Shown here: positions 1 to 14,080 of the stretch, one piece after another
Layout: each line of letters begins with the position of its first letter
Numbering within the stretch: position 1 is the first letter of the stretch
From: an uncultured SAR116 cluster alpha proteobacterium
GTDB taxonomy: Bacteria; Pseudomonadota; Alphaproteobacteria; Puniceispirillales; Marisalimonadaceae
Direction: 5' to 3'
DNA length: 50,050 nucleotides
NCBI GenBank assembly: GCA_902615325.1
Contig: CACMOJ010000008.1
Location: 17,501 to 67,550, forward strand
The notes under the pieces: generated by a model
The model's input: only the letters and a program-made list of their open reading frames with translations
The model's database searches: none
What the model was told of the DNA's origin: nothing
Translations under genes and position numbers: made by a program

Positions 1-1043
1 GGATATGGAAGATTCTCATAATTTTTTCTTACCATTTTTGAAGTTTCATCTCTAATCAAAGAAAAATTTATAATATTTTTTGATATGATTTTTTCTCTCT
101 CGAAATTAGAAATTTGAGCTTTGTAAATTTTTTTAAAGACATTTTTAAAATTTGTTTTTTTAATCCATGATTTTTCAAATAAGGGAACATAGCAAGATAA
201 TAAAGCAATACTGACATCTAATTTTTTAGAATTTAATTTATTATATATTTTTTTGGAGTTTAAATTTTTAAGAACTTTTTTTTCATATTCATCAATATTG
301 TAAATATAATCTGTATTAATACATTGAAGAGAGAGAGCCTCAATAACTTTTTTTGAACTATGATTTAAAATTATAGCTTCTTTTTCGATTAAAAGAAATT
401 TTCTTAGAGACATTATAAATTTTTCTAGAAATAAATCTGAGATAGGGACTGTTTCCAATAATTTTATAAACAAATTTTCTTTACTTAATTTAAGAATAAT
501 ATCTTCGTTAAAATTGTTATTGTAAAAATCATTTTGAATATTTTTAAATTCTACTTTATGTTTCAATAAGCTAAGTATGCTATTCATAAAATCACGAGGT
601 CTAACAAAATTTTTTTTATTTAAAATTTTTAGGTATATATTTTCAATTTCATTTGAATATTCTGAAAACCGGATCTTTCTTAAATAATAAATAAAGATTG
701 AGTTCTTTAAAGTTTTGTTACAATCTTTTTGATAAGCGAGTTGATAATAATGAAATGATTTATTATGATTTTGTTTTTTAAAATGGGCATTAGCTAAATT
801 AATGTAAGCATCGTAAGAAGCTCTAATTTTCAATGATTTAATTAAATAATTAATAGCTAAGTCATATTTCTGATTAATATAATATATTAAACCTATAAAA
901 TTATAAATTTTGTAATTAGCGTTGTCATCTCTTTCTAACTTTAGACATTCAACCAAAGCTTCATTATATTTCCTGTTTTTTAATAAATTTTCTATGTCAA
1001 ATTCTAAAGGTTTATTTATATTATTTATTGTTTTTAATTTCAT
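1..1043 (-). CDS. TPR-containing SAM-dependent methyltransferase, N-terminal part (cut by window edge)
   Basis: An uninterrupted reading frame runs on the minus strand from an ATG at 1043 off the left edge (347 codons visible). Residues 20-110 have the alternating helix pattern of tetratricopeptide repeats (NYKIYNFIGLIYY, ASYDAYINLANAHFKK). The last visible residues are KNYENLPYP, which resembles the QYEENPYPRW-like motif that I know from bacterial proteins with N-terminal TPRs and a C-terminal Rossmann methyltransferase domain. The methyltransferase domain itself would lie outside the window, so the enzymatic call is inference. The gene faces away from everything to its right. Confidence 0.7.
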   Translation of the reverse strand, partial: MKLKTINNINKPLEFDIENLLKNRKYNEALVECLKLERDDNANYKIYNFIGLIYYINQKYDLAINYLIKSLKIRASYDAYINLANAHFKKQNHNKSFHYYQLAYQKDCNKTLKNSIFIYYLRKIRFSEYSNEIENIYLKILNKKNFVRPRDFMNSILSLLKHKVEFKNIQNDFYNNNFNEDIILKLSKENLFIKLLETVPISDLFLEKFIMSLRKFLLIEKEAIILNHSSKKVIEALSLQCINTDYIYNIDEYEKKVLKNLNSKKIYNKLNSKKLDVSIALLSCYVPLFEKSWIKKTNFKNVFKKIYKAQISNFEREKIISKNIINFSLIRDETSKMVRKNYENLPY

Positions 1044-1262
1044 TTTAGTATGTAAGTAAAATTTTGATATTTAACTTGGTATGCAAAAAACAATCCAATT
1101 GCGTTTGATTTACAATTTTTTTTATTATATAAAAATGTTAAAATAAATTTTTTGAAAATTAAAATTGAAAAATATTTCACATTTATTTTTCAATGATTTA
1201 TTTGTAACAGTTCTAATTTTACAAATAAACACCAGTTTTAATCAAAATTATATAAGTGATTA

Positions 1263-1312
1263 TCAGGCTCATAACCTGAAGGTCGCAAGTTTATATCCTG
1301 CCTCTGCAACCA
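1263..1312 (+). pseudogene. 3' fragment of an initiator tRNA (tRNA-fMet, CAT anticodon)
   Basis: These 50 bases match the last two thirds of a bacterial initiator tRNA. There is a perfect 5-bp anticodon stem (TCAGG 1263-1267 with CCTGA 1275-1279) around the loop CTCATAA with anticodon CAT at 1270-1272. Then come the variable loop AGGTC, a T-arm GCAAG-TTTATAT-CCTGC, the 3' acceptor strand CTCTGCA, discriminator A and an encoded CCA at 1310-1312. No D-arm or 5' acceptor strand lies upstream. The T-loop has lost C56 and A58 (TTTATAT instead of TTCAAAT) and one T-stem pair is broken. It is therefore a decayed fragment, possibly an old attachment-site remnant, and not a working tRNA. The rest of the 1044-1441 gap holds nothing I recognise. 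Confidence 0.8.
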
Positions 1313-1441
1313 ACTAATTAAATTTTGTAACTATATGGAATTGTAGATCAAAAGATTAACATCAGCGTTCAATTTAATTTTAACTAGTGAAAAGTTTGGT
1401 ATTAAATTTGCACATCACTATTATTTAAATTTAGGTATGAT

Positions 1442-2092
1442 ATGGAATTTAAATATGTAACTTTACCTAATTTAGGTATTATTGAAACGCAACTTTCAGA
1501 AGAAATTATAAAAAATTTGTGGGTAGTTATTGAAGATGCAAAACAAAATCAAGTTAATCATAAAAAAGTCTTAGCTGGACATATCTCATCATCATTAAGA
1601 ATTGATCAAGATTCAAAATATTTAAAAGCTTTTCTTGAAAATGTTTTACCACAAATTACTAGTAAATATATTGAAGCATATAAAGGATTGCCGGTAAGAC
1701 ATTTAGTATCAAACCAGCATCCAAAAATAGAATTAGATCTGGATAGTTTGTGGGTAAATTTTCAAAATAAGCACGAATTTAATCCTATACACAGTCATGG
1801 AGGAGCTTTAAGCTTTGTAATTTGGATGAAAATTCCCACTTCTAGCAATGAACAAAACAATCTACCGATCTCTAAAAACTCGTCTAGTAAAGGATTAGCA
1901 TCTAATTTTTCGTTTATTTATAACGATATTTTAGGAACCATTCGAACATTTGTTTATCAAATGGAAAAAAATATATCTGGATATATGGTTATGTTTCCTT
2001 CAAGCCTTCATCATCAAGTTTGTCCATATTATGAGTCGGATGAAAGTAGAATTACTATTTCTGGAAATTTAGCTTTAAAATATCTTGTATGA
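1442..2092 (+). CDS. Putative 2OG-Fe(II) oxygenase-like protein
   Basis: The 216-residue protein has the layout of the small 2-oxoglutarate/Fe(II) oxygenase family (2OG-FeII_Oxy_5 type) common in marine bacteria and their phages. The segment FNPIHSHGGALSFVIWMKIP supplies the first metal ligands (H117 and H119). A distal MFPSSLHHQVCPY segment supplies H190 or H191, and R203 in SRITISGN would bind the 2-oxoglutarate carboxylate. The usual HxD is HxH here, so the exact ligand set is uncertain. No signal peptide or membrane segment is seen. The substrate cannot be inferred; it stands alone between a tRNA fragment and the convergent VTC gene. Confidence 0.65.
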   Translation: MEFKYVTLPNLGIIETQLSEEIIKNLWVVIEDAKQNQVNHKKVLAGHISSSLRIDQDSKYLKAFLENVLPQITSKYIEAYKGLPVRHLVSNQHPKIELDLDSLWVNFQNKHEFNPIHSHGGALSFVIWMKIPTSSNEQNNLPISKNSSSKGLASNFSFIYNDILGTIRTFVYQMEKNISGYMVMFPSSLHHQVCPYYESDESRITISGNLALKYLV

Positions 2093-2319
2093 TCTATCTT
2101 CATGACAAATCATTTTGATCCACTAAATTTTAAATTTAGAGAAAAATATATTACGCTAATCAAATTCTTTTAAATTAAAAATGGTACATCACTAAAATAT
2201 TTAAGCAGATTTATTAAATCTTCATCAGTTTGAATTATATCGTCAATAATCTTGTTCTTGAGAATATCATTTTTTTAAATTAAAATAATCTAGGTAGGAT
2301 AATATTACATGAGAATTAA

Positions 2320-2922
2320 TCATTTCATAAATGAATTAATTGCTCTACTATATTTAGAAAACCTAACCCTGTTAAAATGAAACATCTTATATAAAAATTC
2401 AGTTGGCACAAAATTTCCAGCTTTTACCTCTAAAATTATATTTGGTTCATAATTTTTATAAACACTTTCTCTAAGCTTGTTTACTTGAATGTATTCTATA
2501 TTTTGGTCAATAGTAAGTCTTACATTATGAATTTTATAATAAGACCTTTGATAATTTACTCTAACCTTAGGTTTACAAATTCCGTAGTCTTTATCCAATA
2601 AACCAAGAGTCATGATCTTATCAAGATTAAAATCTGTAAGTATATTTTTGTATCTACCTTCGACAGATGAAATCTTAACTTCTAAAGTACTAGATTTCAT
2701 TTCATGCTTATATTTTGTATAGCTTCTAACTCTAATTTTTTTTCTAGGAACACACCCTTCTTCTGAATCATTAAACATTTTCATTTCTTCATTGTCAAAA
2801 TAAGTAGAGGAAACGGTTCTATTGTCATATAATTTATATCCGCCGTTTTCAAATACCCAATCTAACAAATTATGCAACTGACTTTTACTGACATTTAGTT
2901 TTTCTTCTTTTCTAAAACTCAT
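2320..2922 (-). CDS. VTC-domain polyphosphate polymerase family protein
   Basis: The whole 200-residue protein is a VTC/TTM tunnel domain, the fold of the catalytic core of yeast Vtc4, which polymerises ATP gamma-phosphate into polyphosphate. Visible tunnel motifs are RKEEK (4-8), SSTYFDN (38-43), the basic strand RKKIRVRSY with R64 and R66, LEVK (80-83), NYQRSYY with R126, TID (137-139), ILEVK with E165/K167, and RFSKYSRA with K190. There is no SPX domain and no membrane segment. The start overlaps the end of the CotH-like gene by 11 bp, so the two are translated from one transcript. The third gene of the operon, DUF4956, may supply the membrane part that Vtc4 carries on the same chain (inference). 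Confidence 0.85.
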   Translation of the reverse strand: MSFRKEEKLNVSKSQLHNLLDWVFENGGYKLYDNRTVSSTYFDNEEMKMFNDSEEGCVPRKKIRVRSYTKYKHEMKSSTLEVKISSVEGRYKNILTDFNLDKIMTLGLLDKDYGICKPKVRVNYQRSYYKIHNVRLTIDQNIEYIQVNKLRESVYKNYEPNIILEVKAGNFVPTEFLYKMFHFNRVRFSKYSRAINSFMK

Positions 2923-5143
2923 AAAGTAAACTAACTAGTGAGTTTGCCTGTTGATAAACTTGGCTTGGTTGACAATTATGCTTTTTAACCATTATTTTTC
3001 CACCCCAAAATTCTTGTTTTTTGTTATATGCGCTAAAACAAGTATTAACTGCATAATTAGTTACATCATGAACTTTTATAATAGAAGAATCTTTAGAAGC
3101 TATTCCTATGTTTGTCTCTGACACTTTAGCTTTATTTAAGGTGAGGTTTGAGTTTTCGCCCACAGAAATTCCTTTATCTTTACAATTTTTTAACACAGTA
3201 TTTTCAATATAGTAACTTCCATATGAAAAATCTATACAGTCATTTCCTGCAGAACTTATTTCAATTTTTTTAAAATTCAATTTTGAAAAGTCCACGTCAA
3301 AAGCATCACTCAACACATTTTTGATAACTACTTTTTTTATATTTCCGTTTACCCTAATTAAATTAACGCCGTCCTCGCATGAAGAACCATTAATATCAAT
3401 TTCAACGTCATTTACTGTCATATCTAGAAAAGTTAGACAACCTGTTAATAATTTATGATTAAAACGTTGTTTTTTAAGGAGGTCAAAATTGTTTTTAACT
3501 CCATTAAATTTTAAGCTCCACTCTTTTAATGTTCCGCCTCTCAACAAAATTCTATCATTAATATTATTTTGGAAGATCTCTATTTTCCTATTATTTCTAT
3601 CTAATAGTAATTTTGCCTTTCCATAAGAAATTAATTCTACTTTGTCACCAAGGTAAAATTTATTTTCTTCATTTTGTTTTGGTTTAATTATGCCACTAAT
3701 ATATTCTTGTTTATCCCCTATAAATATATATGAATTATTAAATTTTGCAGCCAATAATTTAGAGTATTCCTCTAGAGAAATTGTCTCGAAATCACAAGAA
3801 GTTAAAGTAAAATTGCAAACTTCAATTCGTAATTTTTCTGTTGTAGTAAATACTAACCTGCCATCATCATTATATTCTTTATAGTTGGAAAAATAAGGAA
3901 TATATGGTCTGTTTTTTGTATTATTTAGAGAGCGAGAAGCTATTGATTCTAAATTTAATTTTATATTGTTTATAATTGAATTTACCTTTTTTATACTATA
4001 ATCCAAACCAAGTTTATTTAAATTATTTTTAAAACTTTTTCTGTTTATATTTTTAAGTAAGAAAATCGCAGCATCTGCTTTAATTACTTCATAAGCGCTG
4101 GGTGTATGATCTGATTTAAGCTTAATTTCTTCGATATTAACAATGTCCCCATCATAATAAATTGGGATAAAGGATTGATACATAGGATCATAATAAAAAC
4201 GCGAATCATCAGCAGAGAGGCCATGATTAGCGCCCATTGCAAGCATTAATACCTTAAACTCTATTTCTTTATTAATGGCGTTTTTATTGTAATAATTTGC
4301 TTTCAAAGGACGCTTCAATCTGTAGGGGTCTGAATATACATACTCCAACGATAAATTTTCTAAATATGTTTTATTTAGCTGATTGAGTGCTTTCTGGGAG
4401 ATTAGTAAACTTGTTGTACCTTTTTTTATCCATTTACTATTTATCACTTTTGTTAAGACAAATTTATTTGCTAAACGACTATGCATATGCCGCTCATCTC
4501 CCTCAATTATAGGAGCTTCGCGTAAACCGTTAGTTTCAATAAACTCCTTTGTAATTTTTTCTTGATAAAGATAATTTATTTCTTTTCCATTAAATAAAGC
4601 TGGTACATAATAGGTTTTTGGGGCTAAAAATCCTAACTCTTTAAACAGTGCGGTTGCAAAAACTTCATTATCACCACCTCTTGTATGTGGAATAAACAAT
4701 TTAAATTGGGTGGATGAATCAATGTTACCATTAAGTAACCTTACATCAAGACTAGTAACTGGAGGAATAGAGGCTAGATGGTCATTAAAGTCCCCATGTA
4801 TTCTTATTTTTGCAGAAAAAATACAGCTTAAGTTATTGCCAAATAGTATTCTTATTTTAGCTTTAAATCGTTTTTTATATTTCTTTAAAATTTTTCCATA
4901 TTCAGTTAACACTGTATTTCTGGAAGATTCAACCGCTTTGATATAATTTTTTGCCCATTTTTTACTTTTATTCGTGGATATATCAATAAACTTAATATTC
5001 TTTGCAGATAAAAAGCTATCAATATTATCAGAATTACAGTTTGCTTGCGCATTAATTGAGAAAAAAACTAAATAAAATAATAGGACTACACAAACATTTG
5101 ATAATGCATTTTGAATATTTTCATTTCTAAATGGTCGGAACAT
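2912..5143 (-). CDS. Exported CotH-like kinase fused to a C-terminal beta-helix domain
   Basis: This 743-residue protein begins with a hydrophobic export segment (about 14-34, ending AQANC). A CotH-kinase-like region follows at 110-340: RIHG (114-117), a KLFIPHTRGGDNEVFATALF segment, YLYQEKI with the probable nucleotide-binding K196, EGDE (214-217), GANHGLSADDSRFYY (304-318) and IYYDGD with D331/D333 as the likely metal site. CotH of Bacillus is an atypical protein kinase of the spore coat. Residues about 530-715 are short repeated strands (VNDVEIDING, KKVVIKNV, FKKIEISSAGND, NSNLTLNKAKVSE) typical of a right-handed parallel beta-helix. The start codon shares base 5143 with the stop of the DUF4956 gene upstream. 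An exported kinase-like domain is odd because ATP is scarce outside the cytoplasm. The target is unknown. Confidence 0.75.
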   Translation of the reverse strand: MFRPFRNENIQNALSNVCVVLLFYLVFFSINAQANCNSDNIDSFLSAKNIKFIDISTNKSKKWAKNYIKAVESSRNTVLTEYGKILKKYKKRFKAKIRILFGNNLSCIFSAKIRIHGDFNDHLASIPPVTSLDVRLLNGNIDSSTQFKLFIPHTRGGDNEVFATALFKELGFLAPKTYYVPALFNGKEINYLYQEKITKEFIETNGLREAPIIEGDERHMHSRLANKFVLTKVINSKWIKKGTTSLLISQKALNQLNKTYLENLSLEYVYSDPYRLKRPLKANYYNKNAINKEIEFKVLMLAMGANHGLSADDSRFYYDPMYQSFIPIYYDGDIVNIEEIKLKSDHTPSAYEVIKADAAIFLLKNINRKSFKNNLNKLGLDYSIKKVNSIINNIKLNLESIASRSLNNTKNRPYIPYFSNYKEYNDDGRLVFTTTEKLRIEVCNFTLTSCDFETISLEEYSKLLAAKFNNSYIFIGDKQEYISGIIKPKQNEENKFYLGDKVELISYGKAKLLLDRNNRKIEIFQNNINDRILLRGGTLKEWSLKFNGVKNNFDLLKKQRFNHKLLTGCLTFLDMTVNDVEIDINGSSCEDGVNLIRVNGNIKKVVIKNVLSDAFDVDFSKLNFKKIEISSAGNDCIDFSYGSYYIENTVLKNCKDKGISVGENSNLTLNKAKVSETNIGIASKDSSIIKVHDVTNYAVNTCFSAYNKKQEFWGGKIMVKKHNCQPSQVYQQANSLVSLLYEF

Positions 5144-5787
5144 TAATAAAGTTTTACCTCAATGCTCTCTATATTTTGATTTTGATCTATAGATTTTCTA
5201 ATTTGATCTATGTCCTTTCTCGATTTCGAAGCTAATTTATAGTGAAATTCCTGTTGTTTTTTATCGTTAACGTATTGCAATAAAAATTTACTTTCATGCA
5301 ATATATCGATTGCTTTTTTTGATTGTATTTCAATGATGTTCAGTTGTAGAGCACCTTCATCAAAAGATAGTGAGAAAATATGAAGATTAAATTTTTTTGC
5401 AATTATTTCAAATAAATATGAAGCAATAATAGTAGCATTTATACTTGCTACTAATAACAATCCAAACTTAATATTGACAGACATACTTATACCTACAGTA
5501 ATTAATGCAAAAAAGATGACCAATTCGAATGGATTTTTTACAGGATTTCTAAAACGTATTATTGAAAGCGCACCAACCATTCCAAGAGATAGAGCTATAT
5601 TGCCAGAAATAACTTTAGTAATGACAAAAGTAATTGCTGGTAATAAAATATACGACATTGTGTGGTGATAGGTTGACGCCCATTTTTGTTTAACTAAAGA
5701 TAACATAATCCTTATAGAGAGGCCAGACGCCATTGCTACAAAACAATTGAATATTAAAGTTTGATTATGTTGTGATAATTCGATCAT
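5143..5787 (-). CDS. DUF4956 family membrane protein
   Basis: The 214-residue protein has four predicted membrane helices (about 10-32, 44-62, 86-104 and 107-130) and a soluble C-terminal half (135-214) with an alpha/beta pattern. The diagnostic GALSIIRFRNPVK segment (72-84) places it in DUF4956, a family I know to occur beside VTC-domain and CotH genes in many bacteria. It is first in the three-gene overlapping cassette. The ATG at 5787 has an AAGGA ribosome site at 5799-5803 about 11 bases upstream. A role as the membrane anchor or channel for polyphosphate made by the neighbouring VTC protein is inference from context. Confidence 0.85.
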   Translation of the reverse strand: MIELSQHNQTLIFNCFVAMASGLSIRIMLSLVKQKWASTYHHTMSYILLPAITFVITKVISGNIALSLGMVGALSIIRFRNPVKNPFELVIFFALITVGISMSVNIKFGLLLVASINATIIASYLFEIIAKKFNLHIFSLSFDEGALQLNIIEIQSKKAIDILHESKFLLQYVNDKKQQEFHYKLASKSRKDIDQIRKSIDQNQNIESIEVKLY

Positions 5788-6203
5788 AGTTTAAAAATCC
5801 TTACTAATGCAAAATTATATTCTTAAACATATTTTAATAATTATAAAAATAAAATTAGCATACAGTATAATACATCATTAGATAAAAGTTTAAAAATTAT
5901 TTATCTTAATAAGTATCTTAGAATTTAAGTAAATAAAAAATTTTTTTACGTAACAGAGAAAAATGTCTATTGTATTAAATTTTTGATCATTATTTATCCG
6001 TAGTAACCATTTTGTTAATCGCTTACATTTAATTTTTTGATTAATAATGTGATAAAATATTCAGGTAATTTACATATTCTTACTCAGTTAGGATCAAATT
6101 TCACCACTACCACAAATATAAAAGAGTATCAAAAAGTTAAGTATGTATAAATTTAGTAATTATTAGTAAATGAATCATTTTTGAAAGATAGATTTTTAGT
6201 AAA
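5788..6203. other. Intergenic region without a recognisable gene
   Basis: These 416 bases separate the DUF4956 cassette from the GYD/DUF779 group. They presumably carry the cassette's promoter on the minus strand; TATACT-like and TATTAT-like boxes are present near 5850-5870, but the AT-richness makes any single choice unreliable. I see no ORF with a credible start and no convincing structured RNA. Confidence 0.4.
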
Positions 6204-6461
6204 TTACTTGTTAATAGTACCTTCTTGTATACTAACTTTGGCCATGCCTTGTTCACTTAAGCCTTGCATAGCTTTTATAACTTCTAAATTAGAACCTGCT
6301 ATACTCTTATTAGTAAAAGATTCAAAAATAAAGCCATTATTGTCACCAGCTTTAAATAAGAAACGTTTATAATCTTCACTTTCTAACTTACTTGAAACAG
6401 CATTTACAACTGCCCATAGCGAAGGGGCTAATAAGGTAAAAGTTGTAACTCTACCATACAT
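6204..6461 (-). CDS. Small protein of unknown function, GYD-associated
   Basis: The 85-residue product is not recognised with certainty. It has a strand/helix alternation (YGRVTTFTLLA, LWAVVNAVSSKL, YKRFLFKAGDNNGFIFESF, NLEVIKAMQGL) that would fit a small alpha/beta-barrel or ferredoxin-like fold. It has no signal peptide. Its ATG at 6461 directly abuts the stop of the GYD-like gene (which ends at 6462), so the two are almost certainly co-translated. This pairing is the main clue to its role. Confidence 0.6.
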   Translation of the reverse strand: MYGRVTTFTLLAPSLWAVVNAVSSKLESEDYKRFLFKAGDNNGFIFESFTNKSIAGSNLEVIKAMQGLSEQGMAKVSIQEGTINK

Positions 6462-6812
6462 TTATTTTTTCTCTGCAACCTGAATAGATGAAATATAATT
6501 TGCCATTTTTTTTGATGAGTCTTCAAAAATCTCTTTCATCTCATTAGATTCAAAAGCTCTAAACCAAGAAAAAGATGTCCAAGCACCACTAGAATATAAA
6601 ATATTACATGCTGACTGAATGTCATAATCACTATCACCACTAATAACAGCTAAAAAATTGTAATCTGGGTGAGTTACCCATAAAAATTCATTCATTTCAA
6701 CTTTAAATGCATCTATTAAAGGTTGAACTATTTTTCTTCTGTCTTGTGGCTTGTTTAACATTGCTGCTGTGTTTTCACTGGTAGTTTTACCCAATAAAAT
6801 ATATTTTCCCAT
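6462..6812 (-). CDS. GYD-domain-like small protein
   Basis: The 116-residue protein starts KYILLGKTTSENTAAM, continues with RRKIVQPLIDAF, and has YNFLAVISGDSDYDIQSACN followed by SGAWTSFSWFRAF. This order (T-rich first strand, R helix, aspartate-containing second half, aromatic last strand) matches the GYD family of small ferredoxin-like proteins, whose function is not established. It is cytoplasmic by sequence. It lies between DUF779 and a second small protein, all on the minus strand downstream of the aldehyde dehydrogenase. A link to aldehyde or thiol stress is inference from position only. Confidence 0.6.
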   Translation of the reverse strand: MGKYILLGKTTSENTAAMLNKPQDRRKIVQPLIDAFKVEMNEFLWVTHPDYNFLAVISGDSDYDIQSACNILYSSGAWTSFSWFRAFESNEMKEIFEDSSKKMANYISSIQVAEKK

Positions 6813-6854
6813 ATTGTATATCTTTCTCTAATTTTAAAATTGGTCACATATTTT

Positions 6855-7202
6855 CTAAATTATGCAAACTTCTGATCTAGTAAGAAATCTCTGCCCAGTT
6901 CCATTATCAAGCGAGAACATTCCACCAATACCTTTAACTGCATCAATAATTAAATCAGTATGTTTCCACTTTTCGTATTGATCGTCATTCATATAGAAAG
7001 GAATTCCACCTATCTCACCTAACTTTACATCGTTATCACCAACAATATATTCAGATTGCAAATAACACATTGGTGCACTTCCATCACAACAACCACCTGA
7101 TTGATGAAATAATAAATCAGGCCCATATTTTGTCTTAAGCTTTTCTATTAATTGTATAGCCTCAGGTGTTGCGACAACTTTAGTATCATCTAGGATTTTC
7201 AT
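6855..7202 (-). CDS. DUF779 family protein
   Basis: The 115-residue protein carries the DUF779 signature FHQSGGCCDGSAPMC (residues about 52-66), with three conserved cysteines that could bind metal or form a disulfide. DUF779 genes are known to sit next to ExaC/AldB-type aldehyde dehydrogenases, and here the gene lies 63 bp downstream of one on the same strand. An AAAGGAG ribosome site (bases 7209-7215, minus strand) precedes the ATG at 7202. A hairpin with a T-tract sits just upstream, so transcription from the dehydrogenase promoter is probably partly terminated before this gene. Confidence 0.85.
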   Translation of the reverse strand: MKILDDTKVVATPEAIQLIEKLKTKYGPDLLFHQSGGCCDGSAPMCYLQSEYIVGDNDVKLGEIGGIPFYMNDDQYEKWKHTDLIIDAVKGIGGMFSLDNGTGQRFLTRSEVCII

Positions 7203-7215
7203 AAATGCTCCTTTG

Positions 7216-7249
7216 AAAAAAAACCGGTATCATATAAATTATGATACCG
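7216..7249 (-). terminator. Rho-independent terminator or attenuator between aldehyde dehydrogenase and DUF779
   Basis: Read on the minus strand, a perfect 10-bp stem CGGTATCATA / TATGATACCG closes a 5-base loop and is followed by one G-C pair's worth of C/G and eight Ts (A-run 7216-7223 on the plus strand). This is a textbook intrinsic terminator. It lies after the dehydrogenase stop and only about 14 bases before the DUF779 start, overlapping its leader. Confidence 0.85.
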
Positions 7250-7265
7250 ATTATTTAGTTATTTT

Positions 7266-8810
7266 CTAAAAAAAACCAAGAGCATTTGGATCATAAGAAA
7301 CATGAACATTTTTTGTTTGTCTATAATGTTCTAACATCATTTTATGTGTTTCTCTCCCAATGCCTGATTGTTTATAGCCTCCAAAAGCAGCATGTGCTGG
7401 ATAATCGTGATAACAATTCACCCATACTCTTCCAGCTTGGATTTCTCTTCCCATTCTAAAAGCTTGATTTCCATCTCTGGTCCAAACTCCCGCACCTAGG
7501 CCGTATAGTGTGTCATTAGCAATTTCCAATGCCTCAGCTTCGTCTTTGAATGTTGTAACTGAAACGACAGGCCCAAAAATTTCTTCTTGGAAGATACGCA
7601 TTTTGTTATTTCCTTTAAAGACAGTTGGTTCTATGTAATATCCATTACTTAAACCATCAACAGATTTAATATTACCGCCTGCAAGAACATCGGCTCCTTC
7701 ATCTTTACCAAGCTTTAAATAAGAAGATATCTTCTCCATTTGCTCAGTTGATGCTTGTGCTCCTATCATTGTATCCATCTCAAGTGGATTACCTTGTTTT
7801 ATTGCAGCTACCCTATCAAGAGCTTTTTCCATGAATTTATCATAAATTGACTCTTGAATTAATGCTCTACTAGGACAAGTACATACTTCTCCTTGATTAA
7901 GTGCAAACATTGTGAACCCCTCTAAGCATTTATTAAAAAAAGCATCATCAGAATCCATAACATTTTCAAAAAATACATTTGGAGATTTTCCACCTAGTTC
8001 TAATGTAACAGGAATTAGATTTTGAGAAGCATATTGCATGATTAATCTTCCTGTTGTTGTCTCGCCTGTAAAAGCAACTTTAGCAACTCTTTTTGAAGAC
8101 GCTAAAGGTTTTCCTGCCTCTAGTCCATAACCACAAACTACGTTTACAACACCTGGCGGTATTAGATGACCAATTAAATCCATTAAAACCATAATAGATG
8201 CTGGTGTTTGTTCTGCTGGTTTTAAAACAACACAATTTCCAGCAGCTAATGCAGGAGCTAGTTTCCAAACTGCCATTAAAATAGGAAAGTTCCATGGAAT
8301 AATTTGTCCGACAACTCCCAAAGGCTCTTTAAAATGATAAGAATATGTGTTTGAATTAATCTCTGATATTGTTCCTTCTTCAGCCCTAATAACACCTGCA
8401 AAATATCTAAAATGGTCTATAGCTAGAGCTATATCAGCGTTTATAGATTCTCTAATTGGCTTGCCATTATCTAAAGTTTCAGCAGCTGCTAAGAGATTAA
8501 TATTGGACTCCATAACATCTGCTATTTTATTTAACATGTTGGCTCTTTCAGTGAGAGATGTTTTCCCCCATTTAGGAAAAGCAGCATGTGCAGCATCCAA
8601 AGCTGAGTTAACATCTTCTTCATTTGATCTAGCAACTTCACATAAAATTTCACCAGAAATAGGTGTTGGGTTTTCAAAATATTGTCCAGATTTTGGGGTT
8701 ACATATTTGCCATTTATATAATTATTGTATTTATCTTTAAACGGAAAATCTATATCTAAGTGTTTTACGTTTAAAGCGGATGTAGACATTGCTCTGCTTA
8801 AATCATCCAT
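7266..8810 (-). CDS. NAD(P)-dependent aldehyde dehydrogenase (ExaC/AldB type)
   Basis: The enzyme oxidises an aldehyde, probably acetaldehyde or another short-chain substrate, to the acid. The 514-residue sequence has the whole superfamily set: N174 in IIPWNFP, the cofactor-binding K197 in [15 protein letters not shown] (247-254), general base E271 in LELGGK, catalytic C310 in [11 protein letters not shown], and EEIFGPV near the C-terminus. The [11 protein letters not shown] form and the DUF779 neighbour point to the ExaC/acetaldehyde branch. The ATG at 8810 has an excellent ribosome site (AAGGAGG, 8816-8822 on the minus strand). A Fur-like palindrome lies 35 bp upstream. Confidence 0.92.
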
Positions 8811-8844
8811 TTTTTCCTCCTTAATTTTGTTATTAATTTTAGAG

Positions 8845-8861
8845 TAATGAGAATCATTATC
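8845..8861 (-). promoter_or_regulatory. Fur-box-like operator upstream of the aldehyde dehydrogenase
   Basis: On the minus strand the bases read GATAATGATTCTCATTA. This contains a perfect 6-bp inverted repeat (TAATGA / TCATTA) around GAA and closely matches the classical iron-uptake-regulator box GATAATGATAATCATTATC. It is 35 bp from the dehydrogenase start, where bound repressor would block transcription, and about 140 bp from the divergent PPOX gene. Binding by Fur, and not a related Mur/Irr/PerR-type protein, is inference. Confidence 0.6.
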
Positions 8862-9002
8862 AGAGTCAATCTGAGGTGTACATTTTTTAATTTTTCAGAA
8901 CACTTAATTATTTTTTAATTCATTCATTTTACTTTTTGCACTTAATAATTTAATATAAAATATGTACAGATAATTCTTAAAAAATAAATTATTGGAAAAA
9001 TT

Positions 9003-9473
9003 TTGATACCTGACTTAACATTAAATTCATTAAAAAAAGGTTTCGGTCATTTTGGTGTTGCTTCTAAAAGTAATAAAACGAAACACGTTGATACATTAGG
9101 TGTAAGGGTCAACAAAGAAGAATGTTTACTAACTTGCTTTGTTATTCATTCTGAATGTAAAGAAGTTTTAGAATATTTAAATGAGTCTGGTAGAATCAGT
9201 TTTTTTGTGGGGATGATAAGTCATGAGGCATATAATTTTAAAGGACAATATGTATCATCCGAGACAATGAATGAGAGTGATTTGAAAATCTCTAAAGATT
9301 ATTCAAAAAATGTAATAGACATAATTACAAGTATTGGATTGTCTAAAGAAGCTGCATTAGAAAAATATGGAAAATTACCTGACATAGGAATAACATTTAA
9401 GGTAGATAAAGTTTATATTCAAACACCTGGACCAGATGCAGGTAAAGAAATTACGAAAAGCGACACACAATGA
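9003..9473 (+). CDS. PPOX-fold flavin-binding family protein (first of pair)
   Basis: The 156-residue protein looks like a pyridoxamine-5'-phosphate-oxidase-related split-barrel: GRISFFVGMISHEAYNFKGQYV and the later DIGITFKVDKVYIQTPGPDAGKE correspond to strands of that fold. The start is a TTG at 9003 behind GGAAAA, since no ATG precedes the conserved part. It overlaps the next PPOX gene by 4 bp (ATGA) and is the first gene of a three-gene operon ending in a GAF-linked adenylate cyclase. The bound cofactor (FMN, heme or F420) cannot be read from sequence. Confidence 0.7.
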   Translation: MIPDLTLNSLKKGFGHFGVASKSNKTKHVDTLGVRVNKEECLLTCFVIHSECKEVLEYLNESGRISFFVGMISHEAYNFKGQYVSSETMNESDLKISKDYSKNVIDIITSIGLSKEAALEKYGKLPDIGITFKVDKVYIQTPGPDAGKEITKSDTQ

Positions 9474-9853
9474 TAAAAGATTTTCATTTACCAGCATTAC
9501 AAGGAATGTTTCCAAGTTGGATAACGAGTTGTTCGTCAAGTGGTGAACCAAACACCACCGTAATTTCACAAATTTGGTATGTTGATGAAAATCATGTAGC
9601 TTTGTCATTTCAATTTTTTAATAAAACTAAGAAGAATATTTCTGAAAATCCTTATGCTTTCGCAACAATTTCTGATCCAACTACACTAAAACAGTATAAT
9701 TTAGAATTAAAGTTTGATCATGAGGAAACTGAAGGTGATCTGTTTGATGAAATGGATATGAAGTTACAAGCCATAGCATCAATGACGGGTATGACGGGTA
9801 TTTTCAAACTAAGAGCAGCTGATGTCTATAAAGTTATATCAATAAGTGAATAA
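9470..9853 (+). CDS. PPOX-fold flavin-binding family protein (second of pair)
   Basis: This 127-residue split-barrel protein has the order typical of FMN-binding PPOX proteins: a first strand region with PSWITSCSSSGEPNTTVIS, the core IWYVDENHVALSFQFFNKTKKNISENPYAFATISDP, and a tail ending TGIFKLRAADVYKVISI. The FNKTKKNISENP stretch is where the family binds the flavin phosphate and packs its dimer. It overlaps the preceding PPOX gene (ATGA) and ends 25 bp before the cyclase gene. A role in sensing redox state or a small ligand for the cyclase is inference from the conserved-looking arrangement, which is repeated on the opposite strand at 11411-13224. Confidence 0.75.
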   Translation: MIKDFHLPALQGMFPSWITSCSSSGEPNTTVISQIWYVDENHVALSFQFFNKTKKNISENPYAFATISDPTTLKQYNLELKFDHEETEGDLFDEMDMKLQAIASMTGMTGIFKLRAADVYKVISISE

Positions 9854-9878
9854 TATTTTTCATTATTAGGTATAAGTT

Positions 9879-11378
9879 TTGATAAATAAAAATTTACAAT
9901 CCGAAAATGAACTTGAAAACATAAAAAGTCTTCTTGAAAGAAAATCAAAAGAAGTAGAAATAATTAAACAAATTTCTAATAAAATTAACAAATCTCTTGA
10001 TTTAAACTTAATTGCTTCAGAAATGCTCTCCTTAATGAATGACTTTTTTGGATTTCAACATTCTATGATTTTATTGGCATCTGAAGATAAAAAATACTTA
10101 AGTGTTTTAGAAACTTATGGATATAACAAAAAGGGTGTTGGCGCAAAAGTTAAATTTGGTGTTGGAGTTATTGGGATAGTTGCCGAAAAGAAAAAGCTTA
10201 TGAGAATGGCCAATTTAGGAATGCAAAGAAGTTATATGCAAGCTATTCGTGAACAAGTTAAAATAACAGATAAAAATCAACTTCAAGATAAAGTTATGTT
10301 ACCAGGCCTTAAAAACGCAGAAAGTCAAGTTGCAATTCCTATGTTATTAGACAATGAACTTGTAGGTGTGTTTTCTGTTGAAAGTGAAAAAATGAATATT
10401 TTTGACAAAGCCGATGAAATATTAATTGGTATCTTAGCAAATCAAACTGCTATTGCGCTAGAAAATGCTCGGCTTTACCAACTTGAACAAAAAAGACTGA
10501 AAGAGCTAAATAAAGCCCATCACAAACTAGAGAACCTTAATACAAATCTTGAAAAAAAAGTTGATGAGAGAACTTCTGAGTTAAAAATCCTTTCTGAAAA
10601 ATTATCAAAATACTTTTCGCCTCAAGTTTACGAGTCAATTTTTTCAGGTAAGCTAGATGTAAAGATTCAGACTAAAAGGAAACCTCTTACAGTATTTTTT
10701 TCAGATCTACAGGGTTTTACAGAATTAACGGAGAGGTTAGAACCTGAGGTGCTAACAAAACTTCTTACTCAATACTTAACAAAAATGTCTAATATTGCAA
10801 TTAAATGGGGGGGTACAATTGATAAATTTATAGGGGATGCAATTTTAATATTTTTTGGAGATCCTGCAACTAAAGGAGATGAAGAAGATGCAATAGCTTG
10901 TGTTTCAATGGCAATAGAAATGTTAGAGGAACTCAATAAACTTAGAATATCATGGAGAAAAAAAGGATTAACAAAGCCTTTAAATGCTCGAATTGGGATA
11001 CACAGTGGTGTATGTACAGTAGGTAATTTTGGTTCTCAAGATAGACTAGACTATACAATTATTGGAAATGGTGTAAATTTAGCGTCCAGACTAGAATCAA
11101 AATCTAATATAAATAAAATTTTATTGTCTGAAGATACCTATTTACTTATTAGAGATAAAATCATTTGCAAAAAAAAAGAAGCAATAAAAGTAAAAGGTAT
11201 TTCGTATCCAATTCAAACTTATGAAGTCATCAAATTTTCAGAGGAAAATAAAAATTTAATTGAGAAGAATATTCCAGGGTTATCTCTTTCTATTGACAAG
11301 TCTGAAATTGAAGACAGTAAAGTTGCAATAGATTTAGTGTCTGAAGTTCTTCAGCATTTGAAGTCAAAAGATAGTTAA
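9879..11378 (+). CDS. GAF-domain class III adenylate cyclase
   Basis: The 499-residue protein has a GAF sensor domain (about 35-200, with VGVIGIVAEKKK and ILANQTAIALENARLY), a coiled-coil linker (200-245) and a class III nucleotide cyclase domain (265-455). Catalytic residues are all present: metal-binding D276 (FFSD) and D320 (IGDA), adenine-selecting K316 and T393 (DYTIIG), and the transition-state pair N400 and R404. The Lys/Thr pair indicates ATP as substrate and so cAMP as product. A short amphipathic tail follows (460-499). The start is TTG with AGG nearby; the first ATG inside the frame is too late. It is the last gene of the PPOX-PPOX-cyclase operon. Confidence 0.9.
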   Translation: MINKNLQSENELENIKSLLERKSKEVEIIKQISNKINKSLDLNLIASEMLSLMNDFFGFQHSMILLASEDKKYLSVLETYGYNKKGVGAKVKFGVGVIGIVAEKKKLMRMANLGMQRSYMQAIREQVKITDKNQLQDKVMLPGLKNAESQVAIPMLLDNELVGVFSVESEKMNIFDKADEILIGILANQTAIALENARLYQLEQKRLKELNKAHHKLENLNTNLEKKVDERTSELKILSEKLSKYFSPQVYESIFSGKLDVKIQTKRKPLTVFFSDLQGFTELTERLEPEVLTKLLTQYLTKMSNIAIKWGGTIDKFIGDAILIFFGDPATKGDEEDAIACVSMAIEMLEELNKLRISWRKKGLTKPLNARIGIHSGVCTVGNFGSQDRLDYTIIGNGVNLASRLESKSNINKILLSEDTYLLIRDKIICKKKEAIKVKGISYPIQTYEVIKFSEENKNLIEKNIPGLSLSIDKSEIEDSKVAIDLVSEVLQHLKSKDS

Positions 11379-11410
11379 TGTTAATACTATATTAATATAT
11401 TTATAGGTCA

Positions 11411-12031
11411 TTAGTATTTATTGCCTTTTTTATGCGGATCATTTGTAGGTAATATATTTTTTATATAATCTCTTTCTTTCCATTCAGGTGCTGGTGGAAA
11501 CTGTTGACCTTTTCTTGGGACGTAAACAGAGGGTTCTTTAGTATCCAAGTTTGGAATATAACGAGGACAGTTTGGATAAATTTCACATTTAATCCTAACA
11601 ATAAACTTTGCACCATAGTGTTTTTTTATGGAGTTGTTATCATGATGAATAGTTGCGTGTCCATTAATTCTAATTCTACGACTTTTTCCATCAAAATTTA
11701 TGAAAAGTAATCCTACATTTGGGTTTTTTAAAATATTGCCTGCAGTTCGATACATTGAATTACCGTCATATTCCGGATATTCAATAATCTCATTATCAAT
11801 TATTTTTACAAATCCTGGATCGCCAGACTTTATATTACAATCAATATATCCTTTCCATGCACTTGCTATGAAGAAAAACTTTGAATTTTCAATAATGTCT
11901 TTTTCATCATCCCAAAATTGATAATGTTTTCTATTTTTCTCAAGTGCTTCGGCTGTTCTTTTTCCATCAAAAAGATCTTGAAAATGTCTCATGCCTTCAT
12001 GAAAAAAATCTCTTTCTTTGAAATCGTTCAT
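11411..12031 (-). CDS. PPOX-fold flavin-binding family protein (partner of PAS cyclase)
   Basis: The 206-residue protein resembles larger PPOX-family members: KFFFIASAWKGYIDCNIKSGDPGFVKI (SGDPG is the typical FMN-phosphate turn), then GNSMYRTAGNILKNPNVGLLFINF, RIRINGHATI, and a C-terminal region with KCEIYPNCPRYIP that matches the proline-rich tail of this group. It follows the PAS-cyclase gene by only 5 bp on the same strand. Its operon points towards the PPOX-cyclase operon on the plus strand, and the two converge with 32 bp between stops. Confidence 0.85.
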   Translation of the reverse strand: MNDFKERDFFHEGMRHFQDLFDGKRTAEALEKNRKHYQFWDDEKDIIENSKFFFIASAWKGYIDCNIKSGDPGFVKIIDNEIIEYPEYDGNSMYRTAGNILKNPNVGLLFINFDGKSRRIRINGHATIHHDNNSIKKHYGAKFIVRIKCEIYPNCPRYIPNLDTKEPSVYVPRKGQQFPPAPEWKERDYIKNILPTNDPHKKGNKY

Positions 12032-12036
12032 TTTTA

Positions 12037-13224
12037 TTACTTTTCTTGGTCTTTTTTTAATTGTTTTAATGTATTTTCTAAAGAAGATATAACTTTATCT
12101 TTTTTAGAAATATTTAAATCAATATTTAAATTAAATCCATCAAACTCTTTATTTAAAATTTTTCTTTTCTTGGCCATATTTTCGTATGAGCCTACTACCT
12201 TATATGTTTGTATTTTATGAGCTATGCCTTTTACTTTAATTTCATCCTTTTTCTCGCAAATGATGTCTTTTTTAATTAAAGCATAGGTCTCTTGTGAAAT
12301 TAAAATTTGACCAGTCATTGCGTTAGATTCAAGGCGACTAGCTAAATTAACTTCTCCACCAATAATTGTATAATCAAGTCTATTTTCAGATCCAAAATTA
12401 CCAACATTACAATAACCAGTATTAATACCTATTCGAATTTCTAAGGGATTTGCAATCCCTTGATCTTCCCATAAATTTTTAAGTTGATGCATGCGTTCCT
12501 GCATTTCTAAAGCCATTAAAACACATGAATGAGCATCTTCTCTTTCACCTTTTGTCTCTGGGTCACCAAAGAAAATTAAGATTGCATCGCCTACAAACTT
12601 ATCAATTGTTCCTCCATATTTAAGAGCTATTTTAGACATTTCATTTAAATAACTATTAAGTAATTTGCTTAGTACTTCTGGTTCCAGTCTGTCTGTAATT
12701 TCTGTAAACCCTTTAATATCAGAAAAGAACACAGTCAGTTTTTTTCTATAAGCTTCAATTTTTACATTTTTTTTTCCTGAAAATATTGATTGATATACCT
12801 GAGGTGATAAGTATCTTGAAAGCTTCAAAGCTAATTGTTCAATTTTATCCCTTGCTTTAACTCTTTCGGTAATATCTACAACAGTCCATAAAACTTCATC
12901 TTTATCTGCAACCGGATCACCTGCAATTCGAAACCATATTTTTTCATTATTCTTCTTCTTAAAAGGCCAATCTAAATTTACAGGTTTATTATTTCTTACT
13001 AGATTGAAAGCTTTTTCACCAAATTCTTTATAAGCTTTATTAGACGTATGTATGATTTGTGCATTCTCTCCAATAAGTTCTTCTTTTGTAAAGCCTAACA
13101 TTTCACAAAACTTTGGGTTTACTTCAATAAGGTTGCGATTTTTATCCACGATCATTATTCCGAAACCAGTATTGTGAAAAACTTGTTTAAATCTAGAAGA
13201 TAGTTGGTTACTTTTAAGTTTCAT
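12037..13224 (-). CDS. PAS-domain class III adenylate cyclase
   Basis: The 395-residue protein has a PAS sensor domain (about 12-120, with IMIVDKNRNLIEVNPKFCEM and a WTVVDITERVKAR end) joined by a short helix to a class III cyclase domain (about 155-350). The catalytic set is complete: D169 and D213 for metal, K209 and T286 for adenine, N293 and R297 for the transition state. It is clearly a paralogue of the GAF cyclase at 9879-11378: the helix LSxYxSPQVYxSIFSGK, the catalytic core and the amphipathic tail all align. No membrane segment is present, so it is a cytosolic sensor. Confidence 0.9.
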   Translation of the reverse strand: MKLKSNQLSSRFKQVFHNTGFGIMIVDKNRNLIEVNPKFCEMLGFTKEELIGENAQIIHTSNKAYKEFGEKAFNLVRNNKPVNLDWPFKKKNNEKIWFRIAGDPVADKDEVLWTVVDITERVKARDKIEQLALKLSRYLSPQVYQSIFSGKKNVKIEAYRKKLTVFFSDIKGFTEITDRLEPEVLSKLLNSYLNEMSKIALKYGGTIDKFVGDAILIFFGDPETKGEREDAHSCVLMALEMQERMHQLKNLWEDQGIANPLEIRIGINTGYCNVGNFGSENRLDYTIIGGEVNLASRLESNAMTGQILISQETYALIKKDIICEKKDEIKVKGIAHKIQTYKVVGSYENMAKKRKILNKEFDGFNLNIDLNISKKDKVISSLENTLKQLKKDQEK

Positions 13225-13468
13225 TCATGCCACAATTATTTAAGTATAAAATACTATTAATAATAATTTAATAATATCAATTTAAAAAATTTATTAACAT
13301 GATTTTAATTCCATAAAATTTTATTGATATGACTTCATTTATCATTCTTATTACATAAAGGTCGTAAATTTAAATATTTTTTCATTATCCAAAAAGTTTT
13401 ACAAATTAAATATATCGTGAGGTATTTAAAAAATATGAATATTAGGTTTTTTTTTAGAATGCCAGATA

Positions 13469-14080
13469 TTATTTTTGATTGACTAATTCCATGAACTCTG
13501 AGCGCAAATTCTGGTCATCTTTAAATATACCTATCATTTTTTTTGTTACAGTACTCGATTCAGGTTTGTGTACACCTCTTGTAGTCATACATTGATGGGA
13601 TGCGTCTATAAGAACCGCGACCCCTAAAGGATCTAAAACATTTTGTAAGGTTTCAGCAATTTGAGATGTTAATGTTTCTTGTATTTGTAACCTTTTAGCG
13701 AATATATCAACAAGTCTTGCAATTTTACTAATTCCAACAACTCTATTTTTAGGCATATAAGCAACGTGAGCTATCCCAAGAATTGGAACTATATGATGTT
13801 CACAATGTGATTCAAGTCTAATATTTTTAATTAAAACCATTTCATCGTAACCCTCAACTTCTTCAAAAGTTTTTGAAAGAATTTCAATTGGGTCTATTTT
13901 ATATCCCTCAAAGAATTCTTCATAAGCTTTTACAACTCTTTGAGGAGTTTCAATTAGGCCCTCTCGTTCAGGGTCATCACCTGCCCAAGCAATTAGAGTT
14001 TTTACTGCTCGCATGGCCTCTTCTCTTGAAGGATTAGGGTTAAATTTAATTACATTTTCATTATTATTTTTAATAGTCAT
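13469..14080 (-). CDS. folE: GTP cyclohydrolase I (type IA)
   Basis: The enzyme converts GTP to dihydroneopterin triphosphate, the first step of folate synthesis. The 203-residue sequence has the zinc ligands C93 and H96 (SHCEHH) and C164 (HQCMTTRG), the GTP-binding ISKIARLVDIFAKRLQIQE stretch and the KPESSTVT loop. Length and motifs are those of the zinc-dependent IA enzyme. It is divergent from the CobW-type GTPase, with a Zur-like palindrome between them. This fits zinc-responsive control, since this enzyme needs zinc. Confidence 0.95.
   Translation of the reverse strand: MTIKNNNENVIKFNPNPSREEAMRAVKTLIAWAGDDPEREGLIETPQRVVKAYEEFFEGYKIDPIEILSKTFEEVEGYDEMVLIKNIRLESHCEHHIVPILGIAHVAYMPKNRVVGISKIARLVDIFAKRLQIQETLTSQIAETLQNVLDPLGVAVLIDASHQCMTTRGVHKPESSTVTKKMIGIFKDDQNLRSEFMELVNQK

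Follow-up and report, generated by a model that had tools for sequence, protein, structure and literature searches.

Genes for a CotH protein, a poly-phosphate polymerase (PPP) and a DUF4956 protein have been described together in Gram-positive Pel loci, where they form an accessory set in the arrangement cotH–PPP–DUF4956(–DUF4832) and are linked to exopolysaccharide (PMC7112168). A locus of Clostridium perfringens, NELoc-2, is also reported to hold VTC-domain genes, CotH, a HEAT-repeat gene and a glycosyltransferase (PMC2879425, PMC11677781). In the present study, we analysed a stretch of 50,050 nucleotides from an uncultured SAR116 cluster alphaproteobacterium (contig CACMOJ010000008.1; the whole stretch is called the window), in which the same three gene families stand side by side. 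They form a cassette of three minus-strand open reading frames (ORFs) at 5787-2320, in the order DUF4956, CotH/beta-helix and VTC:

5143..5787, minus strand, DUF4956 membrane protein of 214 amino acids (aa), from the ORF and PF16316

2912..5143, minus strand, CotH-fold/beta-helix protein of 743 aa, from the ORF, a family profile and Foldseek

2320..2922, minus strand, soluble VTC-type tunnel domain of 200 aa, from the ORF and PF09359

The first-pass annotation of this DNA had described three overlapping genes here, and the ORF coordinates agree, with overlaps of 1 and 11 bases between neighbours. The trio is already in print, and what is new in the window is an altered CotH active site and the fusion of CotH to a beta-helix. 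The window differs from the Pel accessory set in that its CotH is fused to a beta-helix and carries His in place of the Asp corresponding to D228 of Bacillus CotH. For NELoc-2, the available text of the two papers does not describe a beta-helix fusion, and two of its genes, of 226 and 222 aa and called tubulin/FtsZ, may be DUF4956 candidates. Limited term searches found literature that records the trio, but the available parts of it contain no test of its function.

VTC and DUF4956 keep each other's company across genomes as a conserved pair. Co-occurrence counts had been named as a check in the first-pass annotation. Among 136 genomes of the order, VTC was found in 8 and DUF4956 in 7, all seven of them among the eight; in a draw of 398 genomes from the phylum, VTC was found in 8 (7 above the cut-off), DUF4956 in 8 and both in 7. 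Wherever both occur in these two sets, they share one strand and fall within about 4 kb; one genome (G023) holds two such clusters. The same 3 of the 14 named control genomes match both families. Fisher tests gave p values of 5e-11 for the order and 2e-13 for the phylum, which overstate the association since related genomes are not independent. Full-length matches to the CotH/beta-helix protein were obtained in 5/398 genomes, and in all five the contig also carries VTC and DUF4956. A further 14 genomes with partial matches to the 12-row family alignment (A5) were excluded from this count; the three of these matches that were examined more closely (L047, L048 and L049) leave the active-site column uncovered. 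The three genes occur in three orders, which are DUF4956–CotH–VTC, DUF4956–VTC–CotH and CotH–VTC–DUF4956.

The VTC protein of the window scores 83.7 bits to PF09359 against a Pfam cut-off of 23, and all 18 of the sequences compared match Pfam VTC. A family profile built from 10 relatives found the yeast Vtc4 structures, the best being 3g3q (E 1.7e-11). In the profile alignment, Vtc4 residues K200, R264, R266 and R361 correspond to K8, R64, R66 and R126 of the window protein, and E426, K428, S457 and K458 to E165, K167, S189 and K190. R264 and R266 are reported to be essential for synthesis by Vtc4 (PMC8749416), and K458 is described as its catalytic Lys (PMC4641920). Fourteen columns, M1 included, are invariant in 18/18 sequences, and the equivalents of K200, R264, R266, R361, E426, K428 and K458 are conserved in every one. 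S189 (Vtc4 S457) is kept in 17/18 and R135 (Vtc4 R373) in 15/18. On this alignment most of the VTC tunnel is preserved: the tunnel domain is homologous to that of the yeast VTC complex (Vtc4, 3g3q, 8i6v), and the majority of the aligned residues remain in the window protein.

In yeast VTC, the membrane helices are on the chain that carries the tunnel, whereas in the window they are on a separate chain of a different family, DUF4956. No hydrophobic segment was found in the 200-aa VTC protein, which sets aside a VTC protein with embedded membrane helices and agrees with what had been claimed before, that the domain is soluble and that tunnel and membrane part are separate chains. Unlike yeast VTC, the protein is also too short for an SPX domain. 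The DUF4956 protein scores 33.0 bits to PF16316 (cut-off 30.6), and the family match extends to 16/16 relatives. The protein has the conserved motif LSLGMVGALSIIRFRNPVKNPFEL, and G69, L74, R80 and I96 are invariant in 16/16. It had been called a four-helix membrane protein; the structure model instead has five helices and a C-terminal beta-alpha-beta-beta-alpha-beta domain of ferredoxin-like type. The mean pLDDT of this model is 70, and the C-terminal part is low (45-67). Since the pair is conserved and the VTC protein has no helices of its own, DUF4956 as its probable membrane partner, as first proposed, is a natural inference from the neighbourhood.

As the constant core, VTC and DUF4956 are most simply read as a two-chain counterpart of the VTC complex, in which the reaction would take place in the cytosol next to the membrane partner. 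We tentatively favour, with somewhat less than even confidence, a membrane-associated polyphosphate synthase of VTC type that is split between two chains, together with an extracytoplasmic CotH/beta-helix partner that uses or binds its product. The steps are inferred in falling order of certainty, as docking, synthesis, delivery across the membrane and use outside. The VTC protein would dock on DUF4956 on the cytoplasmic side of the inner membrane and would make polyphosphate from adenosine triphosphate (ATP), DUF4956 may help to pass the chain through the membrane, and outside the CotH/beta-helix protein would bind or use it. The most likely use would be in modifying or organising an acidic surface polymer held by the beta-helix. 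If VTC and DUF4956 are a two-chain synthase, they would represent a minimal bacterial VTC system, one that allows experiments on catalysis apart from membrane passage.

The 743-aa protein carries a single hydrophobic segment (residues 12-30), a CotH fold at about 90-330 and a right-handed beta-helix at about 494-722. It gives no Pfam match to CotH (PF08757) up to E 1, nor to Beta_helix; among 12 relatives, 6/12 match Pfam CotH (E 0.01) and 4/12 match Beta_helix. The fold was recognised by a 9-row family profile, whose sole match in the PDB up to E 10 is Bacillus CotH 5jd9 (E 2.1e-6), and by Foldseek, in which 5jd9 ranked first (E 1.2e-9). The model is poor overall, with a mean pLDDT of 62, and exceeds 88 between about 571 and 700. 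Two family alignments were used, A1 with 9 rows and A5 with 12 rows; L024 is in A1 and was excluded from A5 for its long insertions. In the profile alignment to 5jd9, the Asp of the CotH motif 'NFD' falls on H307, while D331 is matched by the first Asp of 'PWDYD'. H307 and D331 have the same spacing, 23, as D228 and D251 of B. subtilis CotH. D331, whose equivalence to D251 comes from this alignment and the equal spacing, is invariant. The column of D228 holds His in 13/13 distinct relatives (9/9 in A1 and 12/12 in A5). The window protein thus has in common with Bacillus CotH (5jd9, 5jda) the fold and the D251 equivalent, and differs from it in the His at D228, the beta-helix fusion and the N-terminal hydrophobic segment. 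The first-pass annotation had described an exported CotH-like kinase joined to a beta-helix; the CotH fold, the beta-helix and the N-terminal hydrophobic segment were recovered, and the label of kinase is doubtful, since the catalytic Asp is missing from the CotH part in the alignment.

This change bears directly on the explanation that the protein is an ordinary exported protein kinase. On that view, secreted proteins would be the substrates of CotH, and VTC–DUF4956 would be a mere neighbour. The CotH fold and the invariant D331 would fit such a kinase. Outside the membrane, however, no ATP would be expected, and the linkage to VTC–DUF4956 persists across the different gene orders. The activity of B. 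subtilis CotH is reported to need both D228 and D251, and the substitution D228Q inactivates it (PMC7821199), whereas the D228 equivalent here is His in all 13 relatives. An ordinary ATP-using CotH kinase is made unlikely by the His-for-Asp change, and we regard the exported protein kinase as very improbable. As judged from the alignment, the same change is compatible with a pseudokinase scaffold or with a phosphotransferase fed by polyphosphate. In the latter, invariant H307, perhaps with H122, would pass a phosphoryl group from exported polyphosphate to an acidic polymer lying on an Asp/Lys face of the beta-helix; we consider this decidedly unlikely as it stands. If true, it would explain how an enzyme of kinase fold can be active in a place that should lack ATP.

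Of the 26 columns invariant in the 12 CotH/beta-helix rows, 16 lie between 568 and 708, and they include nine acidic residues and three Lys. The invariant residues follow a 22-residue register that was reached by 4/20,000 random placements. A repeat of 22 residues places the invariant residues on one face of the beta-helix; the register supports the beta-helix fold and a common face, without bearing on function. The His-for-Asp change and this stacked face offer precise residues for testing. The right-handed beta-helix is a form that the window protein has in common with Cthe_2159 (PF14262) and with the PL3 pectate lyases, which were the Foldseek matches to this part (E > 0.01), and no sequence family match of the window beta-helix to either was found.

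The third gene beside the pair is variable. It is mostly extracytoplasmic and polymer-related, or else a phosphate transporter. On a Paenibacillus cellulosilyticus plasmid (L060:3929-7353), VTC–DUF4956 is followed by a beta-helix protein of the Cthe_2159 family in the place of CotH; proteins of this family are reported to be beta-helices with affinity for cellulose and acid sugars (PMC6712302). Beta-helix proteins have joined VTC–DUF4956 in at least two ways, because here the beta-helix is fused to CotH and in Paenibacillus it is a separate Cthe_2159 protein. A Planococcus CotH that adjoins VTC and DUF4956 has Asp in the D228 column. Four of the five plasmid VTC records were examined (all except H5). 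On Bacillota plasmids, two of the VTC records examined carry annotation of the trio, and a Nonomuraea plasmid record has a Pfam CotH and, next to VTC, a tblastn match to DUF4956. The neighbours elsewhere include Pel loci and glycosyltransferases, which also fits the favoured reading. In two genomes (G218 and G234:C9; L035:4621-7772 and L037:5023-8012), a PHO4 phosphate transporter lies directly downstream of VTC (E 4e-105 and 4.7e-100); the second G234 copy (L036) has no PHO4, and a short transposase-like ORF was seen nearby by eye. Because the third gene varies between CotH, PHO4 and a Cthe_2159 beta-helix, the VTC–DUF4956 core would supply the phosphate polymer to the membrane or further out, and the third gene would decide its use. 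As a separate observation, one locus (L033:1839-7566) has in one run a CotH with lamin-tail domains, VTC, DUF4956 and a HlyD-like secretion protein, and its CotH motif carries Asp as judged by eye.

The transporter also brings in the possibility of a phosphate reserve, in which polyphosphate is kept outside the inner membrane, the beta-helix binds or releases it with metal ions, and CotH is a pseudokinase scaffold. The PHO4 gene adjoining VTC–DUF4956 in two genomes and the replaced catalytic Asp of CotH are consistent with it, and SAR11 cells are reported to have an extracellular buffer of labile phosphate (PMC4525184). In the host genome of the window (G000, 82% complete), no match to PPK1, PPK2 or Ppx-GppA was found, which would also suit a reserve; in the VTC genomes of the order, Ppx-GppA was found in 4/8 and PPK2 in 0/8. 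The cassette is nevertheless rare in the order (8/136) and cannot explain a general trait, and in other cases a CotH with its Asp intact takes the third place, beside polysaccharide genes. We therefore consider a phosphate reserve unlikely.

Several results weigh against the split polyphosphate synthase. E6 of the VTC protein is acidic in all 18 sequences (15 Glu and 3 Asp), and through the ExExK motif we take it to stand at an acidic-patch position of tripolyphosphatases that has no counterpart in Vtc4. At this one position the protein looks more like a tripolyphosphatase than like Vtc4. The HMMER alignment shows no clear window equivalent of Vtc4 K281, and K83, the candidate for this equivalent, was not borne out by it. 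Foldseek with the DUF4956 model gave nothing at E <= 0.001; its best matches (E 7.9e-3) are weak, ferredoxin-like and limited to the C-terminal part. The nearest relative found for DUF4956 is, weakly, the MgtC family (PF02308), with matches in half of the relatives (8/16) at E values of up to 1. Among them the best (E 9.1e-4, covering model positions 1-118 of 121) reaches 20 bits, below the cut-off of 31.4, the window protein itself gives no MgtC match, and there is no sign of a channel in what was found. MgtC is a membrane protein with an ACT-like domain at its C-terminus, which serves here as a lead only. A relationship of DUF4956 to the yeast VTC membrane domain was set aside, as no match in the sequence, profile and Foldseek searches pointed to it; weak hits in these searches fall on the C-terminal ferredoxin-like part.

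These features would suit a surface-polymer module to which polyphosphate is incidental. In such a module, the tunnel enzyme would have another activity (for example as a tripolyphosphatase or a nucleotide-triphosphate enzyme), DUF4956 would be a regulator of MgtC type, and exopolysaccharide would be modified or bound by the CotH/beta-helix protein. Proteins of the VTC/tunnel fold are reported to show several different activities, and AtTTM3 is described as having four Glu in place of the basic residues that guide the chain away in Vtc4 (PMC4641920). The resemblance of the beta-helix to pectate lyases, the glycosyltransferase neighbours elsewhere and the Pel loci (PMC7112168) point in the same direction, as do acidic E6 and the MgtC matches. 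On the other side, the equivalents of catalytic K458 and of K428 are kept in every sequence; K167 follows Vtc4 (K428), and AtTTM3 has Glu-171 at the K428 position by our mapping. The Pfam VTC match in all 18 sequences and the PHO4 transporter as a partner also speak against this module, and the MgtC match is sub-threshold and absent from the window member. We consider the surface-polymer module possible, although on the unlikely side.

The distribution of the genes also holds points against the split synthase. The pairing has exceptions, since G002 and the weak-match G301 have VTC without DUF4956, and G385 has DUF4956 without VTC. On a Pelagibacteraceae single-cell contig (AG-461-B18, L003:2777-3653), the sole relative found in the collection of named genomes, the VTC gene is 42% identical to that of the window and is preceded only by a 96-aa ORF resembling the end of a beta-helix; no DUF4956-like ORF was seen, and decay or a broken assembly is a possible cause. 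VTC was found in 0/43 order genomes that are >= 90% complete and in 8/93 of the others (Fisher p 0.056). Contamination or binning bias as the source of the VTC genes is worth keeping in mind; for G027 and G030, and for those two only, contamination is less likely because the flanking genes are shared. PPK1 is independent of VTC, being present in 4/8 VTC genomes and 67/128 others, and VTC as a replacement for a missing PPK1 was set aside, as there is no such association.

The cassette is accessory. The window sits on a contig of 67.5 kb, and its positions 1-14000 were compared by blastn with two genomes of the same genus (L055 and L056). The right flank is common to both at 87% DNA identity, with matches starting at 6196 and 6226, and VTC gave no match in either of these genomes, which are 60% and 78% complete. 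The segment upstream of the cassette is:

5788..6203, minus strand, intergenic, where synteny with the two same-genus genomes ends (blastn)

The scan for promoters and terminators stayed near the level of shuffled sequence, with 37 against 29.4 (standard deviation 5.1) and 1 against 1.1. A phage or plasmid carrier was set aside on searches that covered the plasmid set alone, in which three tblastn runs gave 3, 5 and 0 records, none of them close. As to pelDEADAFG, the genes that the Pel accessory set adjoins, no Pel biosynthesis family was found among seven Pfam-scanned proteins within 1442-11378, nor pel genes by eye among the ORFs of 1-12000, the genome itself not having been searched for them.

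Adjoining the cassette on the opposite strand is a putative 2OG-Fe(II) oxygenase gene (1442-2092, PF13759), and for part of it (1379-1795) there is an 82% match at the end of L056. A neighbour gene of 85 aa in the window continues as a 915-aa ORF in G059 (L056:5765-8512). Further along, at 9879-11378, the window encodes a GAF domain fused to a guanylate/adenylate cyclase catalytic domain.

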